Positions 2-64,000 of a stretch of 64,000 nucleotides of DNA are shown in pieces. Source of the DNA: Nocardioides panacis. Lineage in GTDB: Bacteria > Actinomycetota > Actinomycetes > Propionibacteriales > Nocardioidaceae. The notes under the pieces are model-generated. The model did not search any database. It was given only the letters and a program-made list of their open reading frames with translations, and was not told the origin of the DNA. Location of the stretch: assembly GCF_019039255.1 (NCBI RefSeq), contig NZ_CP077062.1, positions 372,001 to 436,000 on the forward strand. The letters run 5' to 3'. Every line of letters begins with the position of its first letter. The stretch's first letter is position 1. The position numbers were made by a program, and so were the translations under genes.

Positions 2-286
2 GAATCTGTGCGACGGACGATGGCCCTCGGCCTGTACGGGCGCGGCCAGAACTTCACCGACGAGGAAGCCGACCTCCTGCTGCGGCGGGGAGCCGGTCAG
101 CACATCGACCAGATGCTCACCTATGCCGCCGTCGGAACCGCGCGCGAGGTCGCCGACTACCTCGAGGCATTCCGCATCAAGGCCGACGCAGACGAGTTGA
201 TCACCGCCCACCAGGCGCCCACCCAGGAGGGCCGGCTGCGTTCGGTCACGTTGACCGCCGAGGCAATGGGCTCCGACAGCGTATGA
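2..286 (+). CDS. C-terminal end of a luciferase-like (LLM class) flavin-dependent oxidoreductase, 5' truncated by the window edge
   Basis: The reading frame is open from base 2 and ends at TGA 284-286, so only about the last 94 residues of a roughly 330-residue protein are present. The tail matches the end of bacterial luciferase-like oxidoreductases: a helix with DEEADLLL, a G-T-x-x-E-V-A-D-Y-L segment (the AREVADYLEAF helix) and the sequence ADELITAHQAP typical of the last TIM-barrel strand and helix. Such enzymes use reduced FMN or F420 on unknown substrates. The internal GTG at 8 is not taken as the start because the upstream codons read through in frame. The family call is fairly sure; the substrate is unknown. 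Confidence 0.7.
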   Translation, partial: ESVRRTMALGLYGRGQNFTDEEADLLLRRGAGQHIDQMLTYAAVGTAREVADYLEAFRIKADADELITAHQAPTQEGRLRSVTLTAEAMGSDSV

Positions 287-33833: not shown

Positions 33834-35049
33834 ATGCCTGACGTGGAGTTCACCAACCTTCTGGCGGTCACCGTCATCGCCCTGCTCGCGCCGTTGACGC
33901 TCGGCCTGTCGCCAGGGCTGCGCCTGCCCGCAGTCGTCCTGGAGATCATCGCGGGGGTGGTCGTGGGGCCGCAGGCCCTGGGCTGGGTCGAGGTGGACCT
34001 CCCGGTCTCGATCGTGGCCCTGCTGGGTCTGGCGTTCCTGCTCTTCCTCGCCGGCTTGGAGATCGACGTGCACCGGCTCCGCGGAAGGGTGCTCCGGCTC
34101 GCGGTGCTGGGCTACCTCGTCACGGTGGCCCTGGGTGTCGCCGCCGGTGTCGCCCTCGATGCCGCGGGCTGGGTCGACAGCCCGGGGCTCGTCGCGATCA
34201 CCCTGTCGGCGACGTCGTTGGGGCTGGTCGTCCCCGTGCTCAAGGACGCCGGTCAGGTCGACACCGGACTCGGCCAGGCCGTCGTCGCCGCGGCCTCGGT
34301 CGCCGACTTCGTCGCGATCGTGCTGCTCTCGTTGCTGTTCTCAGGCTCGGACGCAGGTACCGGCAGCCGGCTGGTGCTCCTCGTCAGCTTCGCGGCCCTC
34401 GTCGCCACGACGGCGGTCGTGATCTCCTACGTCGCCAGGTCCCGCCGCCTCGACATGACGTTGACCCGCCTGCAGGACACGACCGCGCAGATCCGGGTGC
34501 GTGCGGCCGTCGTCCTGCTGGTCGCCTTCGTGGCACTGGCCGAACGGTTCGGCCTGGAGAGCATCCTGGGTGCGTTCCATGGCCGGCGCCGTGGTGGGGC
34601 TGCTCGACAAGGACTCCCGGGCGCACCCGAACTTCCGGGTGAAGCTCGAGGCGATCGGTTACGGCTTCCTCATCCCGGTGTTCTTCGTGACCAGTGGGCT
34701 CCGGCTCGACCTGAGCGGCCTCCTGGAGAACCCGTCGGCCCTCGGCCGGGTCCCGATCTTCGTGCTCGCGCTGCTGGTCGTCCGCGGACTACCGGCCATG
34801 CTCTTCGGTCGGCAGTTCGACCGTCGCTCGGTGGCCGCGGCCGGCCTGCTCCAGGCGACGTCGTTGCCGTTCATCGTCACCGCGACCCAGATCGGCGTCC
34901 TGACCGGCCTCATGAGCGCCGTCACCGCAGCGGCGCTGGTCTGCGCTGGTCTCCTGTCGGTGATGCTGTTCCCGGCTGCTGCCCTCGCCCTGCTCCGGGC
35001 CCAGCGGGCCGACCAGCTCCAGCGAGGGAAGCAACGTCAGACCCGGTGA
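33834..35049 (+). CDS. CPA2-type cation:proton antiporter, one frameshift
   Basis: With one C removed from TTCC at 34577/34578 the gene encodes 404 residues with about 12 membrane helices: RLPAVVLEIIAGVVVGPQAL, FLLFLAGLEIDVHRLRG, LSATSLGLVVPVLKDAGQ and LGAF-MAGAVVGLLDKD. The F-L-x-A-G-L-E-[ILM]-D motif and the L-G-A-F-x-A-G-A-x-x-[GS]-L block are typical of the Na+/H+ exchanger family PF00999. No TrkA domain is attached. Start ATG 33834 follows CGAGGAGACCTC, 44 bases after the anti-sigma gene, so it may be a target or member of that operon. Confidence 0.8.
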
Positions 35050-35211: not shown

Positions 35212-35604
35212 ATGGGAACGCGCACGCTGTGGTCGTACGAGGTCGAGCTGACCGCCGAGCTCGCCAGTGCGTCGAGGTCGCGGGGATTCGTTCGCCGGCA
35301 CCTGTCCGTGCACGGGCTCGCGCACCTGAGCGACAGCGTCGAGCTGGTCGTCAGTGAGCTCGCCACCAACGCGGTGCTGCACGCCGGGACCCGTTTCACG
35401 GTGTCGCTGCACGCGTTCGAGGACACGTTGCTGCTCGAGGTCGAGGACGGCTCGTGGACCGGGCCGTGCCAGGCGGTGTTCGCCGAGCCAGGCGCGGTCA
35501 GCGGTCGTGGCCTCTCGATCGTGAACCTGCTGAGCCGGGACTGGGGGGTGGACACGCAGGCGGGCGGCGGCAAGTCGGTGTGGGCCGAGTTCGAGCTGCC
35601 GTAA
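35212..35604 (+). CDS. HATPase_c-domain protein, anti-sigma kinase-like (RsbW type)
   Basis: A 130-residue single-domain GHKL protein. The N-box is ELVVSELATNAVLHAG (about 44-59), the G1 box is LEVEDGSW (a VEDGS variant of V-x-D), and the G2 box is SGRGLSIVNLLSRDWG. The C-terminal strand is KSVWAEFELP. Such stand-alone domains act as anti-sigma serine kinases or their relatives. A MASE1-PP2C phosphatase at 7.2 kb and a sigma-70 factor at 40 kb could form one network with it; this is inference. The nearby 35605-35699 spacer shows nothing. Confidence 0.85.
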   Translation: MGTRTLWSYEVELTAELASASRSRGFVRRHLSVHGLAHLSDSVELVVSELATNAVLHAGTRFTVSLHAFEDTLLLEVEDGSWTGPCQAVFAEPGAVSGRGLSIVNLLSRDWGVDTQAGGGKSVWAEFELP

Positions 35605-35699: not shown

Positions 35700-37205
35700 G
35701 TGTCCCGGGAACCGCGGCTCCCTGCGAGGCGAACGAGGTGCATCTGTGAAGCACGTTGTGCGGAAACGCGCGTAGTGCCGACACGCCGTAGCGGCGACGA
35801 CGACGAGCGCGCGCACGAGATCGTGGCGGCCGCGGACGCGGCGACCAGAGCCGCGGACGACGCGCACGTGGTGGCCCTCTCGGCTGCCGACACGACGCTC
35901 GCCGCTCAGGAAGCCGTCTCCTCCGCCAGCGAGGTCGCCTCCACGGCGAAGCTGGCGACGGCCGCCACGGTGGCCGCGGCCGCTCGGGCCGCGGCCGAGG
36001 TCGCGGCGCAGGCAGCCGTCGCGGTCGAGTCCGACGCCATCTCCCGTGCGCTGGAGACCGCGGCGCAGGCGGTGGTGGCGCTGGAGACGATCGCGGCCGA
36101 GCTGTCCGACGACGTGGACCCGGACGGTGCCAACCGAGCGGCCGCTGCGGTCGCCGCGACGGTCGCCGCGGAGGTCATCGCCCAGGTGAAGGCAACCGCC
36201 GACGCGGCGGCCAAGGTCGCCCAGGCGGTCGCGGTGGCGGCCGACGAGGCTGCGATGGCTGCGGCGACCGCAGCGGCGATCGTCGACCTGGCAGCCGGCA
36301 GCGCGGAGACTTCCGCGCACGTGGTGGCGGGCTCGAGCGCCGATACCCAGGCCGCGTCCGGTGCGGTCCTGGTGTCCACCGCACACGTAGCCGACCTGGC
36401 GCAGCGCAGGCTGGCCACGCTGCACCAGCACCCGATGGTGGTGGAGCTTCGGGACGCACTCGCGCACAACGAGCTGCTGCTGCACTACCAACCGATGTAC
36501 GACCTGGCGACCGGTGCGATCGTCGGGGTGGAGGCGCTGCTGCGTTGGCAGCATCCCCGGCGGGGGCTCCTCACACCGGTCGAGTTCCTGGACGTGGCTG
36601 AGGGACCTCACCTCGTCGTGCCGATCGGTGACTGGGTGATCGGTACGGCGATCGCCCAGGCCTCGCGGTGGCACCGGGCCCTGGGGTCGCGGGCGCCGGT
36701 GATGTGGGTGAACGTCTCCTGCAACCAGCTCGGACAGCAGCACCTCGCCGGGCTCGTGGAGGCGCAGCTGACGCAGGTCGGCCTGCCGGCGTCGCGGCTG
36801 GGGATCGAGGTCACCGAGCGGCAGCTCGCGACCCGCGTCGACGACGTTGCCGGTGACCTGGTGGCGCTGCGGGAGGTGGGCGTCGGTCTCGCGGTCGACG
36901 ACTTCGGCACCGGGTACGCGTCCCTGGACTACCTGCGGAGGTTCACCTTCGACGAGATCAAGATCGACGGTTCCTTCATCGCCGGGCTCGACCAGGACCC
37001 GACCGACACCGCGGTGACCTGCTCGATCGTGGCGCTGGGCCGGGCCCTGGACCTGACCGTCGTCGCGGAGGGAGTGGAGACGCAGGCCCAGCACGACCGA
37101 CTGCGCCAGCTCGGCTGTTCGGTCGTCCAGGGCTACCTGTTCCAGCGCCCCGCGGCCGCCGAGGTCATCGACCGCGTGCTCCGCTCGCAGTCGGTCGACG
37201 CCTGA
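35700..37205 (+). CDS. EAL-domain c-di-GMP phosphodiesterase with a long Ala-rich helical N-terminus
   Basis: A 501-residue protein (476 if the GTG at 35775 is used). Residues about 40-245 are almost continuous Ala/Val/Thr/Asp/Glu helix with no membrane segment (AATVAAAARAAAEVAAQAAV, then KATADAAAKVAQAVAVAADE). Residues about 255-495 are a complete EAL domain: HYQPMYDLATGAIVGVEALL, VNVSCNQL, LGIEVTER, DDFGTGYASLDYL, EIKIDGSFIAGL, VVAEGVETQAQ and QGYLFQRP. All metal ligands appear present, so it should hydrolyse c-di-GMP. The Ala-rich part may form a long coiled coil for dimer formation or localisation. Confidence 0.85.
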   Translation: MSREPRLPARRTRCICEARCAETRVVPTRRSGDDDERAHEIVAAADAATRAADDAHVVALSAADTTLAAQEAVSSASEVASTAKLATAATVAAAARAAAEVAAQAAVAVESDAISRALETAAQAVVALETIAAELSDDVDPDGANRAAAAVAATVAAEVIAQVKATADAAAKVAQAVAVAADEAAMAAATAAAIVDLAAGSAETSAHVVAGSSADTQAASGAVLVSTAHVADLAQRRLATLHQHPMVVELRDALAHNELLLHYQPMYDLATGAIVGVEALLRWQHPRRGLLTPVEFLDVAEGPHLVVPIGDWVIGTAIAQASRWHRALGSRAPVMWVNVSCNQLGQQHLAGLVEAQLTQVGLPASRLGIEVTERQLATRVDDVAGDLVALREVGVGLAVDDFGTGYASLDYLRRFTFDEIKIDGSFIAGLDQDPTDTAVTCSIVALGRALDLTVVAEGVETQAQHDRLRQLGCSVVQGYLFQRPAAAEVIDRVLRSQSVDA

Positions 37206-37394
37206 CCACGCCTTCAGCGCGGCCGGTCGTCTCCTTGGCGCGCCGGCCTCCGGTCCACGGGACCCCGGGACGTTCGGAGGGCGCCGTTGACCGCGGGTAC
37301 GACAGGCGAGATGGTCGACGGAGGGGGCCGGCACTCCAGGAGGAGGGTGCACGATGACGGTGCTGTGGTCGGACGGCACAGCGAGGGCGGCACC

Positions 37395-37985
37395 GTGAAC
37401 CGACGCCCCGCCTCACGCCACGACCTCCGGCGCGTCGGTGGTCTGGGAGGTGTGCTGGTTCTGGTGCTCGTCCTGGCCTCCGGTTGCGCCTACGCCACCC
37501 AGACGACCGGACCCTACGTGCCCCAAGGCGGCGTCGACGCGCGCAACGCCACCCTGGACGTGGACGACGTCTGGATCGAGGCCCCGCACGGCGTGGCCGC
37601 GGGAGGCGGTGCGAACCTGCGGCTCAGCATCTCCAACGAGTACGGGGCGCGTGACGCCCTGGTGGGTGTCCGGGCCCCGTTCGCGGCGCACGTGCAGCTG
37701 CGACTGGGCGGCCGGGACGTGGGTCGCATCCCGATCCCGCCGTACGCCTCGGTGAACCTGCAACGAGGGCGAAGCGCCGGCGTGCGGCTCGACGGCTTCC
37801 GTCGCGCCGTCGAGGCCGGCCGCTGGGTGTCGATCAGGTTGCTGTTCAGCCGCTCGGCACCGATCGCCCTGCAGGTGACCCTCGGTCCCCTGGGCGCGGA
37901 TCACCTGGACGCCTCGGCGCCGGTGCGGGCGGCACCGTCCCGGACCCGCGTGGAACGATGCGCGGGTGAGCGACTTCTCGGATGA
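37395..37985 (+). CDS. Lipoprotein with PCuAC/DUF461-like domain
   Basis: GTG 37395 opens a 196-residue protein with a basic N-terminus, the helix GGLGGVLVLVLVLASG and a lipobox LASGC (Cys about residue 31). The mature part has VDARNATLDVDDVWIEAP, LRLSISNEYGARDALVGVRA and RRAVEAGRWVSIRLLFSR, the general layout of copper-chaperone-like DUF461 proteins, but their H-x-M...M-x-H copper ligands are not visible. It is an outer-face membrane lipoprotein. Its end overlaps the DUF1684 gene by 20 bases. Confidence 0.65.
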   Translation: MNRRPASRHDLRRVGGLGGVLVLVLVLASGCAYATQTTGPYVPQGGVDARNATLDVDDVWIEAPHGVAAGGGANLRLSISNEYGARDALVGVRAPFAAHVQLRLGGRDVGRIPIPPYASVNLQRGRSAGVRLDGFRRAVEAGRWVSIRLLFSRSAPIALQVTLGPLGADHLDASAPVRAAPSRTRVERCAGERLLG

Positions 37986-38709
37986 CTGGCAGGCATGGCA
38001 CGACGCCCGGGAGCGACGGCTGCGCGATCCGGCGGGGTGGATGGCGATCACCGCGATCCACTGGCTGACCGACGAGCCCGAGAGGTTCGACGACGTGCCG
38101 GGCGAGTGGACCGGCGACGCCGGCGGCGCCACGGTCACCCTCGTCGACGACGAGAGCCTCGCGACGGAGGAGGCCATGCTGACCAAGGGGATCCACCATC
38201 TCGGCCCCCTCGACGGCGCCGGCCTCACGGTCACCTTCGACGGTGCCGTCGCGCAGGTCGCCGACCGCGGCGGCCGCGTGATCGTGCGCCCGCGCCACCC
38301 GGACTCCCCGAACCTGCGGACGTACGCCGGCACGCCCTGCTACCCGGCCGACCCGTCCTGGGTGGTCGCGGCCCGCTTCGTCCCCTATGCCGAGCCGACC
38401 GCCGACGCGGTCGGCGAGGTCGTCTTCGACCATGACGGCACCGAGCACAGGCTGGTTGCCTGGGACGGCGACGACGGCCTCTGGATCCTGTTCCGCGATG
38501 CGACGTCCGGCGTGACGACGTACCCGGCGAACCGGCAGCTGGTCACCGCGGCGCCCTCGCCGGACGGCGAGGTGTGGATCGACTTCAACCGGGCCCACAA
38601 CATGCCGTGCGCCTACACCGACTTCGCCACCTGCCCGCTGCCCCCGGCGGGCAACACGCTGCCGTTCGCGGTCGAGGCGGGGGAGAGGATCCCCGCGCGG
38701 CTGGGGTGA
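37966..38709 (+). CDS. DUF1684 family protein
   Basis: A 247-residue protein. The N-terminus WQAWHDARERRLRDPAGWMA, the central FRDATSGVTTYPANRQL, and the C-terminal block DFNRAHNMPCAYTDFATCPL, then PPAGNTLPF, are the DUF1684 hallmarks (D-F-N-x-A-x-x-P-x-C-A-[FY]-T...A-T-C-P-L-P). The conserved Cys and His residues lie at one end of the beta fold. No known activity. The GTG start at 37966 lies inside the previous gene, so the two are coupled. Confidence 0.8.
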   Translation: MSDFSDDWQAWHDARERRLRDPAGWMAITAIHWLTDEPERFDDVPGEWTGDAGGATVTLVDDESLATEEAMLTKGIHHLGPLDGAGLTVTFDGAVAQVADRGGRVIVRPRHPDSPNLRTYAGTPCYPADPSWVVAARFVPYAEPTADAVGEVVFDHDGTEHRLVAWDGDDGLWILFRDATSGVTTYPANRQLVTAAPSPDGEVWIDFNRAHNMPCAYTDFATCPLPPAGNTLPFAVEAGERIPARLG

Positions 38710-60801: not shown

Positions 60802-60933
60802 CCCGTCGGGTCCTCGCCCGGTCGACTCCCTCAGACTCGCCGGGCCGATGTGACTGGCTCGTAACCACCTTCTCGTGACAAGTTCTACGTGGACCCGCCG
60901 GGAAGCTCCCGGTGGTCGGCCGGCGGAGGTTTG

Positions 60934-64000
<3,067 letters not shown>

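Follow-up and report, generated by a model that had tools for sequence, protein, structure and literature searches.

A rare, well-constrained alanine-rich domain ahead of an ordinary EAL domain in Nocardioides panacis

What does a stretch of some 200 alanine-dominated residues do in front of a complete EAL phosphodiesterase domain? The question is raised by a frame at 35700-37205 (+ strand, open over 501 codons) of the window, by which we mean the whole 64,000-nucleotide stretch of N. panacis DNA that was analysed. The start codon is probably GTG 35775, with 35700, the start used in a preliminary description of this locus, as the alternative. Coding-like codon-position GC sets in only at about 35740-35800, the first 25 codons from 35700 have a non-coding look by codon position, and one orthologue (L011, below) starts no more than two residues from the point equivalent to GTG 35775, which makes 476 residues the likelier product. 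The start is nonetheless not settled, since an AAGGA about 10 nt ahead of 35700 is a better-looking ribosome-binding site than at 35775, ahead of which we saw no clear Shine-Dalgarno sequence. Residue numbers of the Ala-rich domain (14-221) refer to the 476-residue reading from GTG 35775. The gene and its two domains are as follows:

35775..37205, + strand: most likely coding sequence, Ala-rich helical domain plus EAL phosphodiesterase domain, 476 residues (codon composition; start of L011)
35814..36437, + strand: Ala-rich domain, residues 14-221, 208 residues (composition; gapless alignment of five orthologues)
36444..37151, + strand: EAL domain (Pfam PF00563, 4.8e-67; alignment with PDB 4rni; invariant columns)

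The complete EAL domain that had been claimed behind the Ala-rich half was borne out: the Pfam match extends from residue 249 to 484 in the 501-residue reading and over positions 3-236 of the 236-position profile, and its score of 226 bits, against a curated cut-off of 31.3, places the protein in the EAL family. The candidate catalytic residues (E253, N313, E345, E348, D375, D376, K396, E432 and Q452), which we take to fill the catalytic roles of the EAL set in this protein (E of EAL, N, E, E, DD, K, E, Q), are invariant in all five orthologous proteins and align with PDB 4rni, so that the predicted phosphodiesterase activity is likely; judged from these residues, the protein is probably an active c-di-GMP phosphodiesterase.

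The Ala-rich domain contains 38.9% Ala and has a net charge of -16, and among the 34 window frames of at least 208 residues with coding-like GC3 its top 208-residue Ala fraction (0.394) is followed by a next-highest value of 0.212. While its richness in alanine is clear, the preliminary description of it as nearly all Ala, Val and Thr went too far, these three residues making up 58%. The same account was right about the spaced charged residues (Asp, Glu, Lys, Arg or His form about one fifth of the segment), about the absence of aromatics (0 across 208 residues) and about the lack of a usual sensor ahead of EAL, the segment having no match to any Pfam sensor family. No Pfam family matched the Ala-rich domain at E 10 in four of the five orthologous proteins (all except L027), a four-sequence profile brought up no PDB sequence relative at E 1, and a literature search, largely outside subscription journals, returned no title on an Ala-rich plus EAL architecture. 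As far as Pfam, PDB sequences and the literature searched extend, the Ala-rich input domain is undescribed.

A contig scan yielded 13 loci, three of which carry the Ala-rich part (L011, from the metagenome-assembled genome SKS3.bin76; L012, from Nocardioides sp. 21Sc5-5; and L013, from N. gansuensis). With a profile of the segment, matches were found in 4/294 genomes of the family (those of the window, L012, L013 and a new member, L027), 5/391 of the order (the window's, that of L027 and three marginal matches, later dropped), 2/394 of the class (the window's and G517, which encodes the L011 protein) and 3/215 of the genus of L012, L013 and L027, these genome draws overlapping; within the window's genus, none of six further genomes matched. 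In total, five distinct proteins carry the Ala-rich domain, every one of them fused to EAL, and no orphan domain lacking EAL or fused elsewhere was found in the genomes searched. The domain is therefore rare, having been seen in just five species of those covered by the search, and the four orthologues of the window protein comprise three from its own family and one from an Actinomycetes metagenome. A plasmid copy of the gene was sought in 72,556 records, with no match.

Several further candidates were rejected. The three marginal matches (E 2.7e-4 to 8.5e-4) contain an internal stop (L030, L032) or, judged by eye, lie antisense to a long frame (L031). The alignments of L014 (from residue 173), L020 (from 159) and L007 (from 95) reach into the Ala-rich part, in the first two over its final 75-90 residues and with only 7-9% Ala there, and the three have 7-14% Ala before EAL, so that we attribute these overlaps to helix alignment and not to kinship. 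The same holds for the NCBIfam models HmsP (from 122), LapD (182), and GepA and PvrR (186), because their scores lie far below the cut-offs. As a separate observation, L011 sits on an 11-kb contig (JAJZTN010000089.1) of a genome placed in another family, and its resemblance to the window protein equals that of the within-family orthologues; transfer and mis-binning are both possible.

The window genome contains 26 EAL matches at E 0.001, including this gene and split pieces. Ahead of EAL, 14 other frames from 20 fetched stretches hold 11.5-18.5% Ala and 4-13 aromatics, with a GGDEF-like motif in 11/14; in the genome's own EAL frames that are preceded by 208 residues, Ala makes up 11-17% of that part and a GGDEF motif is mostly present where this protein has its Ala-rich helical domain. 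Across 40 EAL frames from 39 loci (some genes counted twice), Ala does not exceed 17.3% where 208 residues lie upstream, and one truncated frame with 36 residues upstream reaches 25%. The GGDEF-EAL phosphodiesterases found in this genome and family share the candidate catalytic residues, as does the solved GGDEF-EAL example PDB 4rni/4rnh, a 'Motility regulator' that we take to be MorA. Because the nearest fetched EAL relatives besides the four orthologues (up to 47.6% identical in EAL) are mostly GGDEF-EAL proteins, we judge from these relatives that GGDEF was probably replaced by the Ala-rich domain. Elsewhere in this set, L043 and L049 (G000, near 4,884.7 kb and 10.8 kb) share the same 60 residues ahead of EAL and lie at opposite ends of a single contig, representing either a duplicated gene or redundant assembly ends.

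The domain had been proposed to form a long amphipathic coiled coil. Its conservation is periodic at 3.58 residues (reached by 1/500 shuffles), its apolar character peaks at 3.5 and 3.58 (1/500 for 3.5), hydrophobicity gives a periodicity equalled by 9/500 shuffles, and a single global heptad register is equalled by 4/500 (p 0.008). Local heptad contrast, on the other hand, was reached by 17% of shuffles (p 0.17), and a clear hydrophobic moment is seen in one helix of the five, H142-185 (p 0.004), as against p 0.03-0.57 in the rest. The heptad evidence is mixed, and support for an amphipathic coiled coil is weak.

In the full-length AlphaFold model most of EAL is good and the Ala-rich domain is broken into five helices, mostly with pLDDT <50. 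Modelled in isolation with AlphaFold2, the domain gave, at low confidence, two helices (2-96 and 103-205 in domain numbering) joined by one turn, with a mean pLDDT of 70 and a pTM of 0.38; mean pLDDT in the other four models was 46-57. The predicted elements are:

35817..36101, + strand: first arm of the hairpin, residues 15-109, 95 residues (AlphaFold2, isolated domain)
36102..36119, + strand: turn L-S-D-D-V-D, residues 110-115, followed by P-D-G (AlphaFold2)
36120..36428, + strand: second arm of the hairpin, residues 116-218, 103 residues, reaching up to EAL (AlphaFold2)

The turn ends at the V-D of DVDPDG, and its residues L110, V114 and D115 are invariant in all five proteins. Information content peaks here (3.18 bits per column in the 20-residue window 104-123), and 46 hand-picked columns around the turn have an identity of 0.67 versus 0.55 elsewhere, a difference equalled in 6/207 circular shifts, the unshifted one included. 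It is only by information content that the turn stands out, since raw identity per 20-residue window is equally high at residues 54-83 (0.72-0.74) and just after the turn (0.72). Invariant, spaced V/L/I residues flank it on both sides (V100, L103, I106, L110; V126, V130, V134), a pattern compatible with helices packing at the turn. On this modelling the hairpin is the likeliest shape of the domain, its structural relatives being unproven: Foldseek returned no match to the hairpin model at E 0.001, and VIA returned chemoreceptor hairpins, RipA, SMC arms and others at Z 10-12, a range that the tool rates as an ordinary, common arrangement for long helices.

Among known structures, the cytoplasmic hairpin of chemoreceptors is, like the model, a long antiparallel helical hairpin (PDB 3g67; Z 11.8, rmsd 6.3 over 197 residues, and Z up to 11.9 against chemoreceptor entries, on a hairpin model of pTM 0.38). 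Unlike chemoreceptors, the Ala-rich domain shows no Pfam match to the methyl-accepting signalling domain at E 10 (four of five domains, L027 left out). A role in chemoreceptor arrays is unlikely, because CheW has no match in four of the five genomes with the gene (the window's and three of the other four; G265 has three matches). The first-ranked Foldseek hit of the hairpin model is the type I antifreeze protein Maxi of winter flounder (PDB 4ke2, E 0.014, 31% identity), a comparable Ala-rich chain of 196 residues that forms a dimeric four-helix bundle according to an excerpt of the published account (PMC5304152). The identity largely reflects Ala, and, unlike Maxi, the domain has no tandem 11-residue T-X10 repeats, no such register appearing when it is cut in 11s; it falls outside the type I antifreeze proteins, and Maxi is at most a shape analogue.

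TipF-type EAL proteins (NCBIfam NF051880) likewise carry a helical segment, presumably a coiled coil, directly ahead of EAL; the match of our protein to that model (23.5 bits against a cut-off of 600, residues 239-487) is essentially to EAL only and places it outside this group. Closer in taxonomy are the actinobacterial GGDEF/EAL proteins CdgA-F, RmdA and RmdB of Streptomyces (PMC6205966). The S. venezuelae c-di-GMP enzymes are composed of PAS-PAC, GAF, TM, GGDEF, EAL and HD-GYP parts, and the enzyme table in the portion of that article consulted names no Ala-rich domain of the kind seen here (PMC6205966).

The reading that we favour, at about even odds (roughly 0.5), is that of a c-di-GMP phosphodiesterase whose undescribed input domain, a helical hairpin, serves to dimerise the enzyme or to dock it and is coupled to the EAL interface. 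The protein would be a soluble phosphodiesterase with a conserved, all-helical, Ala-rich input domain, folded as a long antiparallel hairpin with two arms of about 100 residues, in which small Ala side chains would permit close helix packing. Two protomers may pair through their hairpins into a four-helix rod, the last helix of which would continue into EAL, such that the rod holds an EAL dimer; a partner docking at the conserved turn could then alter the interface of that dimer. For BlrP1, the interface between the paired EAL domains is described as a regulatory platform of EAL activity (PMC3989770). Scaffolding of the enzyme by the Ala-rich segment, as suggested earlier, is plausible as a putative role.

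A rather unlikely alternative is that the domain is a localiser, with amphipathic helices that settle on a membrane, a granule or a polar coiled-coil protein and leave activity untuned. Long Ala-rich helices suit surface binding, and H142-185 has a clear hydrophobic moment, but acidic membranes are not favoured given the net charge of -5 to -16 in the five orthologues, the 11-residue periodicity is not significant (p 0.05-0.08), and information content peaks at the predicted turn. Less probable again is a sensor in which five shorter helices fold back into a ligand- or cofactor-binding bundle with no rod. The five helices of the full-length model and a set of invariant polar residues (D21, D29, D115, R121, Q137, S195, S201, T202) fit this idea, but the helices of that model are those with low pLDDT, and the domain lacks an invariant residue of the types that commonly bind haem, metal or flavin (Cys, His or aromatic).

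It would be far more surprising if the segment were a low-complexity spacer that has neither a fold nor a function in itself and that drifts under a GC-rich bias towards Ala codons, even though the window is 71% GC, Ala codons are GCN and no known domain matches the segment. Against drift, the five sequences are colinear over residues 14-221 and free of internal gaps, L027 being three residues short at its beginning, and the four orthologues are 52-59% identical to the window protein in the Ala-rich domain versus 19% after shuffling. Among all pairs, identity is 0.51-0.76 in this domain (shuffled 0.18-0.19) and 0.62-0.81 in EAL. Nonsynonymous distances of 0.14-0.40 compare with synonymous ones of 0.44-1.65, the latter partly saturated, and the resulting dN/dS of about 0.2-0.4 indicates purifying selection. 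The codon varies in 45/46 columns that are Ala in all five proteins, so it is the protein sequence that is kept and not the DNA. Nor is the sequence repetitive: the segment contains no long tandem array and no 33-base one, and an internal duplication was rejected, its best internal diagonal being matched by 97/200 shuffles. The suggestion that this DNA expands and contracts is therefore not supported, at least between species, where constant length and diversified codons argue against a slippery tract and lead us to reject repeat expansion on the five species compared. That the N-terminal part is an annotation artefact of a gene starting near residue 250 can be dismissed, since all four orthologues carry the segment, none begins near that residue, GC3 is coding-like from about 35800 on, and only the first 25 codons from 35700 are doubtful.

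By eye, and with Pfam applied to the window's neighbours only, no shared neighbour and hence no conserved operon was recognised around the five loci. The genes next to the EAL gene in the window are:

35212-35604, + strand: small HATPase_c_2 protein directly upstream (Pfam)
37287-37985, + strand: PCu(A)C copper-chaperone-like protein just downstream (Pfam)
37966-38709: DUF1684 protein, after the PCu(A)C protein (Pfam)

The HATPase_c_2 protein, which we take to be anti-sigma-kinase-like, has no counterpart recognised by eye at the orthologous loci. Further upstream, a Na+/H+ exchanger (PF00999, 33834-35049, + strand) is split over two frames, the one beginning at 33834 matching profile positions 2-236 and the one beginning at 34501 matching 235-371, so that either the gene is frameshifted or the sequence contains an error there. 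Similar starts, IAIVNRGEAAMR, presumably biotin-carboxylase-like, occur in the frame at 60889-61965 (+ strand, about 24 kb downstream) and in that at 10205-15727 of L034, which lies right after the EAL gene in G265; this is perhaps a coincidence.

The Ala-rich segment is thus a rare, well-constrained domain on an ordinary EAL enzyme, and at present it represents a single rare family whose catalytic half is unremarkable. More tentatively than the reading above, we suggest that it may define a new class of c-di-GMP input domain, in which an Ala-cored hairpin of about 140 angstrom (about 95 helical residues at a rise of 1.5 angstrom) replaces GGDEF, dimerises the phosphodiesterase and uses its conserved tip to bind an actinobacterial partner. 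If so, an input domain with no Pfam name would be added to c-di-GMP signalling, Ala-dominated sequence could be recognised as a constrained domain and not as filler, and the family would offer a tractable case of EAL dimer control through a helical rod.
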